DNA of 64,000 bases from an uncultured Pelagibacteraceae bacterium. GTDB lineage: Bacteria; Pseudomonadota; Alphaproteobacteria; Pelagibacterales; Pelagibacteraceae. The first letter of the stretch is position 1; every line of letters starts with the position of its first letter. The stretch lies in assembly GCA_902596675.1 (NCBI GenBank), contig CACJUO010000001.1:1-64000 (forward strand), given 5' to 3'. The notes beneath the pieces are model-generated. The model saw nothing but the letters and a program-made list of their open reading frames with translations. It had not been told where the DNA came from and ran no database searches. The position numbers and the translations under genes are program-made. This document shows, one piece after another, positions 37,599 to 40,580 of this stretch.

Positions 37599-38195
37599 CT
37601 ACTTTTCTAATAAAAAAATACCTAATTCAGATATAAGGTTTTTATATTTTAAATTTGAAGTTGTAATATTTGAAATTTTCTCTCCATTTAAAGAAATCGA
37701 TTTATAAATATTAACTCTTTTGTTGTTACAAAAATTATAAAAGTCTTGAATTGTACACATATGTAGGTTTGGAGTATTATACCATTGATAAGGTAAATTC
37801 TTTGTAACTGGCATTTCTCCTTTTAATAGCAAATCTAATCTAACTTTCCAATGTCCAAAATTTGGAATTGTAACAATTACCTTTTTTCCTACTCGTAATA
37901 AATTTTCAATAACATTTTCTGGGCTCATAAATGCTTGAAGAGTTTGACTTAATATTACGTAATCAAATGATAAATCTGGAAATTGCTTTAAATCATTCTC
38001 TGCGTCACCTTCAATAACAGCTAAACCTTTAGATAAACATTTTTTTACTTTTTCTTTAGAAATTTCAAGTCCTCTAACATCTACCACTTTATTTTTTAAT
38101 AGATATTCCATCAAAATTCCATCACCACATCCAACATCCAAGACTCTAGATTTTTCCTCAATAAACTTAGAAATAACTTTAAATTCTTCTTTCAT
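37599..38195 (-). CDS. metW: methionine biosynthesis protein MetW
   Basis: MetW is a methyltransferase-fold protein always linked with MetX in proteobacteria and thought to support homoserine acylation. The 198-residue protein shows the SAM-fold loop [29 protein letters not shown] and the family hallmark FPNFGHW-type segment [20 protein letters not shown], then [18 protein letters not shown]. It overlaps the end of metX by 17 bases. Confidence 0.95.
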
Positions 38196-39312
38196 TGATA
38201 TTAGAATAAGTTGTATTTAAATAATTTTTAATAGTGCTTAAAAAATCTGGTACGTCTAATAGAAAGGAATCGTGGCCTTTGTCGGTTTTTATTTCTACAA
38301 AACCAACATCAGCACCAATTGCATTAAGGGCTATTACAATATCTTTATTCTCTGAGGTTGGGTATAACCAATCAGAAGTAAAGGAAATGATGAAAAATTT
38401 TGTTTTGGTATCTTTAAATGCTTTGGAAAGGTTTCCTCCATATTGTTTAGTTAAATCAAAATAATCCATCGCTCTAGTTATATACAAATAACTATTTGCA
38501 TCGAATCTATCTACAAATACAGAACCTTGATATCTCAAATAACTCTCAATTTGAAAGTCAGCATCAAATCCAAATTTTAAATCAGATCTTTCTTGAAGAT
38601 TCCTTCCAAACTTTTCTTGTAAACCTTGTTTTGATAAATACGTGATATGAGCAGCCATCCTAGCAACAGCCAAACCTTTATCTGGATTTGTTGATTTTTC
38701 ATCATACAATCCCTCATTCCAATTGCTATCAGACATTATTGCTTGTCTTCCAAGTTCATTAAAAGCAATATTTTGAGCTGAATGACTAGCCGTACAAGCA
38801 ATTGGTAAAGCTACTTTAGCCTTATTCGGAAAGTTTGATACGAATTGTAAAACTTGCATTCCACCCATGGAGCCGCCAGCAACTGCAAATAACTTTTCTA
38901 TTTTTAAGTAATCTAATAGATTGTATTGCGCGTTAACCATATCGTTAATTGTAATTACAGGAAAATTTATACCAATAGGTTTATTGGTCAAAGGATCAAT
39001 AGTTGCTGGTCCGTAGGATCCCATACATCCACCAATAACATTTGCACAGATAACAAAAAATTTATCAGTATCGAATGACTTACCTGGACCAACTGCATAG
39101 TTCCACCAACCCTCTTTTTTTGTAACTGGATTGATGCCTGAAGCATACTGGTCGCCAGTTAGCGCATGAAAAATTAATATAGCATTATCTTTCTTCTCAT
39201 TAAGATTTCCATAGGTCTCATAGGCTAAAGGAAAGTTCGATATTTCTTTGCCACAATCAAGTTTAAGAGTTTTCTCAATAATTATATTTTTCATTTTATT
39301 TAAATTGCTCAT
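38179..39312 (-). CDS. metX: homoserine O-acyltransferase MetX
   Basis: Alpha/beta-hydrolase-fold enzyme that acylates homoserine at the start of methionine synthesis; whether acetyl or succinyl is used cannot be told safely by eye. The 377 residues include [31 protein letters not shown], the nucleophile serine in [12 protein letters not shown], and the Asp/His pair in [14 protein letters not shown] and [10 protein letters not shown]. The start is ATG at 39312 or at 39294. The gene is led by a SAM-II riboswitch. Confidence 0.96.
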
Positions 39313-39320
39313 AAAATTTT

Positions 39321-39393
39321 GCTGAAATGAATTGTGAGAAAAAAAACTTATTTAGCAGGTTTTTTAAAGCGCTCGCAATTCAGTTAAATCAGC
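39321..39393 (-). promoter_or_regulatory. alternative helix competing with the SAM-II aptamer
   Basis: The aptamer segment at 39393-39372 is complementary to 39338-39321, just upstream of the metX ATG: 5 of 5 pairs (39389-39393 with 39321-39325) plus 10 of 11 pairs (39372-39382 with 39328-39338), enclosing a 33-base loop that includes the T8 run. Aptamer and helix cannot form together. Its role as expression platform is inferred. Confidence 0.5.
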
Positions 39394-39397
39394 GCAA
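39345..39397 (-). ncRNA. SAM-II riboswitch upstream of metX
   Basis: On the minus strand the leader reads GCGCTGATTTAAC, then TTGCGAGCGC, then after 12 bases GCTAAATAAG. This matches the conserved SAM-II (metA motif) aptamer in sequence and spacing. The P1 stem is GCGCT (39395-39391) with AGCGC (39373-39369); the 3' pseudoknot strand GCTAAATAAG lies at 39356-39347. A run of eight T residues (39346-39339) follows at once, in place of the Shine-Dalgarno-like sequence often seen. SAM-II senses S-adenosylmethionine and normally lowers expression of metX-type genes. Confidence 0.9.
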
Positions 39398-39403
39398 AAA
39401 GCT

Positions 39404-39430
39404 TTTATAAGATAGCTTTTTAGATGTCAA
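39404..39430 (-). promoter_or_regulatory. promoter for metX-metW-gloB
   Basis: Minus strand TTGACA (39430-39425), a perfect -35, is followed after 15 bases by TATAAA (39409-39404). Spacing is a little short. The predicted start, near 39397, falls just before the first base of the SAM-II aptamer, which supports the call. Confidence 0.6.
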
Positions 39431-39494
39431 TTTTTTTAGAATTATTGATTGTATTATCTAATTATCTGACTATTTATTAATAAAACTAAGCATC

Positions 39495-40580
39495 ATGAAT
39501 ACTCCATTATTTAGAAAATTAAACCTAGAGGCCTACAAGCCTGGAAGATCCTTCTTAAATAAAAAAAAAAGTATTATAAAACTATCAGCTAACGAGTCAG
39601 CCTTAGGCATGAGTAAAAAAGCTAATAAAGCAATAATAAAATCCAAAAATAATATATCAAAGTATCCGGATGGGAAATTTAAGGAATTAACATCCACAAT
39701 TTCAAAAAAATATAATTGCAAGCAAAATCAGATTATCTGTGGATCTGGATCTGACGAGATTATTCAAATGCTTTGCCAGTTATTTTTGAACAAAGGAGAT
39801 GAAGTAGTCGTACCAGAGTACAGTTTTTTAATGTACAGAATTTATGCAAAAATAGTAGGAGCAAAAGTTATATTTTCTAAAGAAAAAAATTTTAAAGTTT
39901 CAAATGATGAAATTATAAAAAATACAACTAATAGAACTAAGATTGTATTTATAGCTAATCCAAATAATCCTACAGGCACATATATTTCTAAAAATCAACT
40001 ATTAGACTTAAGAAAGCGATTAAATAAAAAAATTTTATTGGTAGTTGATGATGCATATTTTGAATATATGTTAAATAAAGATTATAGATCAGGCCTGGAA
40101 CTTTTTAAAAATCAAAATAACGTATTTGTATTAAGAACTTTTTCAAAAATTTATGGTCTTGCATCTCTAAGAGTTGGATGGGGTTATGGAAGTAAAAAAA
40201 TTGTAGACGCTTTATATAAAATTAAACCACCATTTAATGTAAATAAGATAGCGCAGGAATGTGCAATTGAGTCTCTTAAAGATAAAAGTTTTATTAAAAA
40301 ATCTGTAAAACATAATTTAGATTGGGCTAGAAAAATAAAAAAAATAATGAATTCTTATAGTATTCAAACAAATGAAATTGGACCAAATTTTTTTCTTTTA
40401 GACTTTAAAAATTGTAAATTAAATGCAAGTTTTGTCGAGAAAAATCTTGAAAAATCAGGAATTATTCTTAGAGAGATGAATTCGTATGGCATTAAAAATT
40501 GTTTAAGGCTTACAATTGGAAATGTGAAAGAAAATATACTTTTTATTAAACAGATGAAAAAAATTTTTAAAAATGTTTAA
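39495..40580 (+). CDS. hisC: histidinol-phosphate aminotransferase
   Basis: PLP-dependent aminotransferase for histidine synthesis; in alphaproteobacteria the copy beside prephenate dehydrogenase may also aminate aromatic precursors. The 361-residue protein has ICGSGSDEIIQMLCQ, FIANPNNPTGTYIS, VVDDAYFEY and the PLP-lysine region RTFSKIYGLASLRVGWGYG. It is divergent from metX across a 182-base gap and overlaps the next gene by 8 bases. Confidence 0.93.
   Translation: MNTPLFRKLNLEAYKPGRSFLNKKKSIIKLSANESALGMSKKANKAIIKSKNNISKYPDGKFKELTSTISKKYNCKQNQIICGSGSDEIIQMLCQLFLNKGDEVVVPEYSFLMYRIYAKIVGAKVIFSKEKNFKVSNDEIIKNTTNRTKIVFIANPNNPTGTYISKNQLLDLRKRLNKKILLVVDDAYFEYMLNKDYRSGLELFKNQNNVFVLRTFSKIYGLASLRVGWGYGSKKIVDALYKIKPPFNVNKIAQECAIESLKDKSFIKKSVKHNLDWARKIKKIMNSYSIQTNEIGPNFFLLDFKNCKLNASFVEKNLEKSGIILREMNSYGIKNCLRLTIGNVKENILFIKQMKKIFKNV

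Follow-up and report, generated by a model that had tools for sequence, protein, structure and literature searches.

The window, by which we mean the whole 64,000-nucleotide stretch of DNA analyzed, comes from an uncultured Pelagibacteraceae bacterium. On its minus strand, to which all features below belong, it carries an open reading frame (38179..39312) assigned to metX from the ORF list and its homologs, as it was in an earlier reading of the DNA that used the letters and open reading frames alone (the sequence-only reading). We take the product to be homoserine O-acetyltransferase. The metX leader contains an aptamer core (39347..39395, located by matches to Rfam and to model R1) made up of a P1 stem (5′ strand GCGCU, 39391..39395; 3′ strand AGCGC, 39369..39373, both placed by the Rfam alignment), the loop GAUUUAACUGAAUUGC, an A-run (39360..39365), GCUAAA, and the 3′ strand of the P2 pseudoknot. 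Here the features of SAM-II stand in register, namely the P1 stem, a loop with GAUUU and UUGC, and the GCUAAA 3′ strand, and the element occupies the SAM-II position upstream of methionine/SAM genes, with a metX-like gene downstream. Between genera, P1 differs in paired fashion (GCGCU/AGCGC versus GCGCC/GGCGC). P2 could be traced by eye as UUGC:GCUAA plus AACU:AGUU with internal mismatches and is weaker in some leaders. metX was present in 146 of the 147 loci tested for a protein tree.

Covariance models matched this leader with significant E values at scores below the curated thresholds. RF00521 matched 39331-39405 at 28.1 bits (E = 1.1e-4; gathering score, 36), and RF01726 matched 39342-39401 at 28.1 bits (E = 1.4e-3; gathering score, 44); because these scores lie below the curated cut-offs, a default Rfam scan of the window listed nothing. 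Model R1 matched 39342-39401 at 81.8 bits, the window sequence itself being among the 14 in that model. On the basis of the P1, loop, and GCUAAA features, the gene context, and the SAM-II already reported before metX (SAR11_0217) in P. ubique (PMC2704228), we call the element SAM-II-like and do not claim formal Rfam membership. The assignment of the minus-strand leader to SAM-II in the sequence-only reading is thus borne out by the subthreshold Rfam matches, the features, and the gene context. A second leader of the window genus (L153) matched RF00521 at 29.2 bits. Together with the window element (39331-39405) and L124, it forms a set of three metX SAM-II-like aptamers at 28 to 33 bits, which default annotation would miss because they fall below the gathering scores. 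Just upstream of the aptamer, at 39425..39430, lies TTGACA, a possible −35 element by consensus, which also stands at the same place in the printed leaders of the genus. We did not retain it as a promoter: a promoter consensus scan did not list it and found two promoter-like sites against 2.0 expected.

The P2 strand is directly followed by a run of eight T's (39339..39346) and then by a strand complementary to the aptamer. Specifically, the inner arm CUCACAAUUCA (39328..39338) pairs with the aptamer strand UGAAUUGCGAG (39372..39382) at 10 of 11 positions, with a C·A mismatch at 39335, and the outer arm UCAGC (39321..39325) pairs with GCUGA (39389..39393) at all five. The helix ends at 39321, and 8 unpaired bases separate it from the ATG (39312). 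The sequence-only reading had given this complementarity between 39372-39393 (GCTGATTTAACTGAATTGCGAG) and 39321-39338 (CTCACAATTCATTTCAGC), and its letters, pair counts, coordinates, and placement of the T8 behind P2 all proved exact; its claim of two mutually exclusive folds is supported as well. The duplex (−16.7 kcal/mol) was better than all of 3,000 base shuffles of the 26 nt before the ATG (mean, −5.1; best, −16.0). It was equaled by 170 of 18,280 real 26-mers of the window, a set from which the aptamer's own complement was not filtered out, and by 4 of 305 stretches upstream of an ATG. The anti-aptamer fold is the minimum-free-energy (MFE) fold of the 131-nt stretch, which as a whole shows no unusual stability (z = −0.79; 40 of 200 shuffles as good). 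Judging from this fold and from pair counts, the T-run could just as well pair with the A-run in an alternative hairpin as take part in termination. What makes the case convincing is recurrence in the genus rather than the single sequence.

To characterize this recurrence, we drew on metX matches in 125 of 150 relatives, a few of them weak and paralog-like, and on R1 matches, which were obtained for 273 of 297 genomes from the order. The window genus yielded 183 loci, some repeating a genome, with 149 unique leader stretches; they were chosen partly by metX protein and partly by R1, and the compiling pattern itself demands GAATTGC and T4+. When only the metX protein was used to collect genus loci, 75 of 76 fit the layout; the remaining one (L063) lacks its 5′ end through truncation and has the rest of the layout. 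All 149 unique metX leaders show the order P2 strand, T5 to T9, arm. GCGCU..AGCGC is present in every one, and CUGAAUUGCGAG is present in 148, the exception (L212) carrying CCGAAUUGCGAG. T-runs of 5, 6, 7, 8, and 9 occur in 2, 6, 51, 83, and 7 leaders, respectively. A perfect 11-bp helix occurs in none of the 149: the same place always holds a mismatch or bulge, or the mismatch is shifted by one pair. Opposite the C of GCGAG, the arm letter is A in 120 leaders, T in 20, and C in 2; it is deleted in 4, and the 3 remaining leaders have variants that contain G but are defective elsewhere, through a 2-nt bulge or through a mismatch shifted to the next pair. We left out L063 because of its cut leader, L083, L084, L086, L087, and L090, whose starts tblastn did not find, and L112, which had no long metX match; L126 and L127 match the layout pattern yet belong to other genera with terminators and were dropped from the genus rows. 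In the alignment of cluster leaders (42 of 43 clusters, omitting L189 with its doubtful start), 417 of 419 cells were paired across the ten arm pairs, whereas none of the 42 leaders was paired at the imperfection. Both helices together were 92.8% paired in these leaders, compared to 44 to 64% in slid controls.

The imperfection appears to be kept while its letters change. On a quick tree of 142 metX proteins, with 132 leaders scored, parsimony placed 17 changes at the site: 12 were A>T, 2 were deletions, 1 was A>C, and 2 were G-containing changes with another defect. None was a plain A>G, the one change that would make the helix perfect. The last A of the arm changed 7 times, 5 of these being A>G, which keeps a G·U pair. 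Of 118 unique spacers, 31 contain the outer arm UCAGC, a motif chosen from the window, for which shuffles gave a mean of 0.4; its next commonest permutation, an overlapping one, occurs in 9. Any standard-paired form of the outer arm, wobbles included, was found in 55 of the 118 (5.7 expected from shuffles); the arm is absent from the other 63, several of which are short. UCAGC is complementary to the P1 5′ strand once that strand is freed. Two-sided pair changes numbered zero in the 42 aligned leaders, where the P1 pairs likewise never vary (42 of 42). The sequence-only reading had held that a lack of compensatory changes in the arm across SAR11 metX leaders would refute its proposal, and such a lack, taken literally, is what we found. 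It is uninformative, since 148 of the 149 leaders share one aptamer strand; with that strand and P1 hardly varying, classical covariation cannot decide. A letter-shuffle control was equally uninformative (500 of 500 shuffles as high), and RNAalifold on the same alignment returned P1 with a short extension instead of the anti-aptamer helix, with a covariation term of 0. The evidence for the helix is one-sided: the conserved arm, the G·U substitutions, the displaced or bulged imperfections, and the enriched outer arm support it. We conclude that the observation is real, that the arm is conserved, and that it probably has a function.

The leaders of related genera are built differently. We searched for terminators after GCUAAA, up to the ATG in the window genus and for 75 nt in relatives, with a rule that required a stem of ≥5 with ≥3 G-C pairs (also ≥2), a loop of 3 to 16, and T5+ (also T4+). 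By this rule, related genera have a terminator after P2 in 19 of their 26 leaders (L088 and L161 being the same place) and the window genus in 0 of 149; an earlier scan with loops up to 9 had found 11 of the 26 and missed long-loop terminators, and the rule was widened. A separate scan of window positions 39200-39520 gave no terminator-like site. In other genera of the family, the terminator is GCCC..GGGC with T9 (L124, L126, L127, L129, L132, L134, L137, and L139) or a short hairpin with fewer T's and a GAGG- or AGGG-type strand (L146 and L148 to L151). In the other family of the order, 11 of 13 leaders pass the rule, and two (L089 and L092) have weaker versions by eye. In several relatives, the strand right after P2 forms the 5′ half of the terminator and, as judged by eye, is complementary to the P2 strand. 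Most simply, the window genus would have lost the terminator and kept or made the arm, a direction that we infer rather than reconstruct. T-runs were also considered as a terminator signature and set aside, as the window has only 7 intergenic runs of T≥7, which is uninformative.

Several other SAM-II-like arrangements came to light. Before a different gene (∼298 aa) in related genera (L128, L130, L133, and L136), the P2 strand GCTAAAGCG of a SAM-II-like aptamer matches the terminator loop CGCTTTAGC or CGCTCTAGC, apparently an antiterminator design. For the f2 terminators, pairing with the P1/loop strand was rejected, since by eye the pairing of GCTAAAGCG with the loop CGCTTTAGC (L128) fits better. 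A compact SAM-II-like stretch (GCCGATTTGWTCCTATTGCGGGC..GCTAAA..GGAA) lies just before a SAM-V-like element at 14 of 14 tested genus loci (L164, L169, and L171 to L182), the genes of which are presumably metY and mmuM. R1 matches were weak at all 14, an Rfam scan of L164, L172, and L174 gave SAM-V only, and in 5 of the 14 the linker holds AATCGG, complementary to aptamer CCGATT. Outside the order, a class-wide sample contained a direct U-run in 0 of 26 readable SAM-II-like loci, 2 more of its 28 being unreadable. Searching across genera for GATTTG and a U-run immediately behind P2 gave 90 stretches, of which the 80 loci listed were examined. Among those listed, 14 pass a loose P1 test, and one is a convincing SAM-II, L282 (5448-5560) from the Flavobacteriaceae; two patterns searched in viral contigs gave 0 matches. 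L282 has a SAM-II long loop aptamer (76 bits), then T7, then GCATTCAGTC, which is nearly complementary to the aptamer strand GACTGATTGC, a layout like that of the window in another phylum. We take its downstream gene to be metK-like. Its arm duplex was reached by 0.6% of 3,000 shuffles, a figure for a single post hoc locus.

How the leader would act on metX is less readily read from its letters. An intrinsic hairpin terminator by the above rule was found in 0 of 149 genus leaders; a pseudoknot acting as terminator would escape that rule. Direct Shine-Dalgarno (SD) occlusion was not found either: the P2 strand lacks GG after GCUAAA in 149 of 149 leaders and ends 28 to 52 nt before the ATG, most often 34, as in the window. 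The sequence-only reading was thus right that this is not an SD-sequestering platform; it needs correction in that SD sequestration is one usual SAM-II arrangement among others, many SAM-II being reported to have intrinsic terminators (PMC1273637, PMC2258182). SD-less starts are usual in the window, where GGA, GAG, or AGG stands at −20..−4 in only 18 of 62 crude gene starts. The hairpin's 3′ end lies 5 to 9 nt from the ATG in 122 of 149 leaders, a spacing that we rejected as a constraint because it is no tighter than in shuffled spacers.

Pairing of the U-run and arm with the gene start exceeds that with random window starts and with codon or base shuffles (43 clusters) and mainly involves AUUCA with UGAAU at the start codon. 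Ranks averaged per leader (69 leaders; null, 56 window starts) came to 0.49 by energy, 0.29 by pairs, and 0.40 by AUG. However, when metX starts are taken from genera without the arm, pairing is about as strong (AUG paired, 0.35 versus 0.29; 17 of 20 usable), with ranks of 0.60 and 0.62 for two AUG measures; only the arm pairs taken together stay slightly higher with the own starts (rank, 0.39; P = 0.04). Anti-start pairing with AUG is therefore unproven, and no coevolution is shown. In the window's own leader, start pairing is weak (AUG paired, 0.07; rank, 0.59). Strong pairing with the gene start (UUUUUCUCA..AUUC with GAAUACUGAGAAAAA; −10 to −12 kcal/mol) was seen in L036, L062, and L070.

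Predicted energetics favor the anti-aptamer fold. In leaders taken up to the ATG, it is the MFE in 68 of 69 (first set). Its advantage over the P1 state averages 6.0 kcal/mol (range, 1.5 to 12.6), in a comparison that does not count P2 and SAM. Removing the imperfection would stabilize it by a further 5.5 kcal/mol (65 of 69 leaders computed). With the gene start included and the fold unconstrained, the arm helix has a mean probability of 0.67, falling below 0.1 in 15 of 69. Around the AUG (−6..+12), the anti-aptamer state is predicted to be more open than the P1 state (0.67 versus 0.53; 54 of 69). In contrast, the region −20..−6 is less open (unpaired, 0.25 versus 0.55; 65 of 69), and its predicted closure argues for the opposite polarity. 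These accessibility predictions conflict. We agree with the sequence-only reading that which fold is ON cannot be read from the sequence.

The arm, the T-run, the outer arm, and the imperfection are conserved, the terminator of most relatives is absent, and the stability is predicted. The model that we favor, and to which we give an even chance, is a SAM-II riboswitch that has two states and an anti-aptamer platform and is turned off by SAM and on in its ligand-free hairpin. Without SAM, the A-run would pair with the T-run, and pairing would zip on from there to GAG:CUC, then to UGAAUUG:CAAUUCA, and in many species to GCUGA:UCAGC as well; P1 would thereby come apart, and P2 could not form. When SAM is present, P1 and the pseudoknot would persist, and the T-run and arm would stay free. 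The single kept imperfection, by weakening the helix ∼5.5 kcal/mol, would allow SAM to compete. The anti-aptamer state would thus be ON and the SAM state OFF. As the output we favor, over termination at the T8, a drop in translation start that would come about when the U-run and arm, once freed, pair with the A-rich region around the start; this step is the least certain part of the model. SAM binding, the switching, the zipper order, and the polarity are likewise inferred. For SAM-OFF speak the role of metX in feeding methionine synthesis, the repression of other P. ubique switches by SAM as described in a sulfur-limitation study (PMC5069961), and the competitor strand in relatives, which would be an ON element. 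On the other side, that study mentions metX once, in its introduction, and SAR11_0217 nowhere.

The main rival, which we consider possible yet doubtful, is termination at the U-run by P2 itself. SAM-bound P2, abutting the U-run, would act as the terminator without a hairpin, and the arm, made later, would refold read-through RNA with no SAM binding. It would account for a P2 strand that runs directly into T5 to T9 in 149 leaders, and it agrees with the terminators after P2 in 19 of 26 related-genus leaders, with the termination common for SAM-II (PMC1273637, PMC2258182), and with the aptamer inside a terminator known in HMP-PP riboswitches, although there the ligand is described as preventing termination (PMC6478431). 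However, P2 beside the U-run reads as mostly A-U with mismatches, and the arm, lying 3′ of the U-run, cannot affect termination there. Pairing with the A-run accounts for the T-run as well. Moreover, T4 to T6 also directly follows P2 ahead of a separate terminator in L124, L126, L127, L129, and L139, so the U-run may descend from that linker. A bolder reading, which we regard as unlikely, is that a hairpin-free SAM-II platform arose at least twice, in Pelagibacter-like metX leaders and in the metK-like L282, with the SAM-bound pseudoknot at the U-run stopping transcription and an arm with one mismatch maintained by selection setting the switching threshold.

A rival of opposite polarity strikes us as quite improbable: the ligand-free hairpin, ending ∼7 nt before the AUG, would block the 30S subunit, and SAM would free an unstructured, U-rich leader. 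The closure of −20..−6 and the position of the hairpin's 3′ end in 122 of 149 leaders fit this reading, but feedback on an enzyme that makes a methionine precursor would be expected to work the other way, the terminators of relatives and the SAM-repressed switches described in P. ubique (PMC5069961) also speak against it, and the spacing is no tighter than in shuffled spacers. Very improbable, finally, is an arm kept for another reason (a protein site, an antisense transcript, or a start-region element) with an incidental aptamer match; the missing two-sided covariation, an arm pair broken in L103 (ATCACAATTC), and the changed aptamer of L212 with no matching arm change would suit it, but complementarity is kept in CTCGCATAATTCA (a perfect GCGAG block plus a 2-nt bulge; 2 unique leaders) and in CTAGCAATTCA (mismatch moved by one; 1 leader), and the outer arm complements the other strand of the same stem.

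The metX SAM-II itself is known. Our literature search, which covered titles, abstract openings, and passages of the papers cited, found no description of an anti-aptamer SAM-II platform, and we regard the platform as apparently and provisionally new. The literature covered includes work on tandem SAM-II/SAM-V (PMC11508383) and on S. meliloti SAM-II (PMC9373788), further papers (PMC2864571, PMC4239095), and reviews (PMC10907184, PMC9481103). In the window bacterium and its genus, a conserved mirror strand apparently replaces the usual off-switch. If the two-state model is true, a riboswitch can dispense with its terminator yet retain the competitor strand. The sequence-only reading and the gene context suggest a SAR11 lineage, although a comparison with named Pelagibacteraceae stretches gave no match; should the suggestion hold, such leaders would be widespread among the sea's commonest cells. 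The natural helix series, with one defect kept by apparent selection, makes the tuning of switch energetics testable, and metX aptamers of this kind can escape detection at the curated Rfam thresholds.

Compared with known systems, the leader shares with RF00521 (SAM_alpha) and RF01726 (SAM-II long loop) the P1 stem, the GAUUU..UUGC loop, the A-rich linker, GCUAAA, the P2 strand, and a methionine gene. It differs from them in its subgathering scores, in lacking a terminator hairpin or an SD in P2, and in the arm after the U-run. It has the aptamer class and gene of the Sargasso Sea metX SAM-II (2QWY), as presented in PMC9373788, PMC10907184, and PMC11508383. Unlike that riboswitch, for which direct ribosome-binding-site occlusion with the SD in P2 is described, its P2 strand has no SD and stops 34 nt short of the ATG. 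With the HMP-PP (thiS) riboswitches, whose aptamer is embedded in the terminator, it has in common a U-run beside the aptamer and mutually exclusive folds, whereas there the ligand is described as preventing termination at a classic stem-loop, unlike here (PMC6478431). Like the terminator-bearing SAM-II of related genera (L124, L126, L132, and L161), it precedes metX and has a strand after P2 that, by eye, is able to compete. In those genera, however, the competitor sits in a terminator with T7 to T9, whereas the window genus has a terminator in 0 of 149 leaders and an arm that targets the loop and P1 strands.
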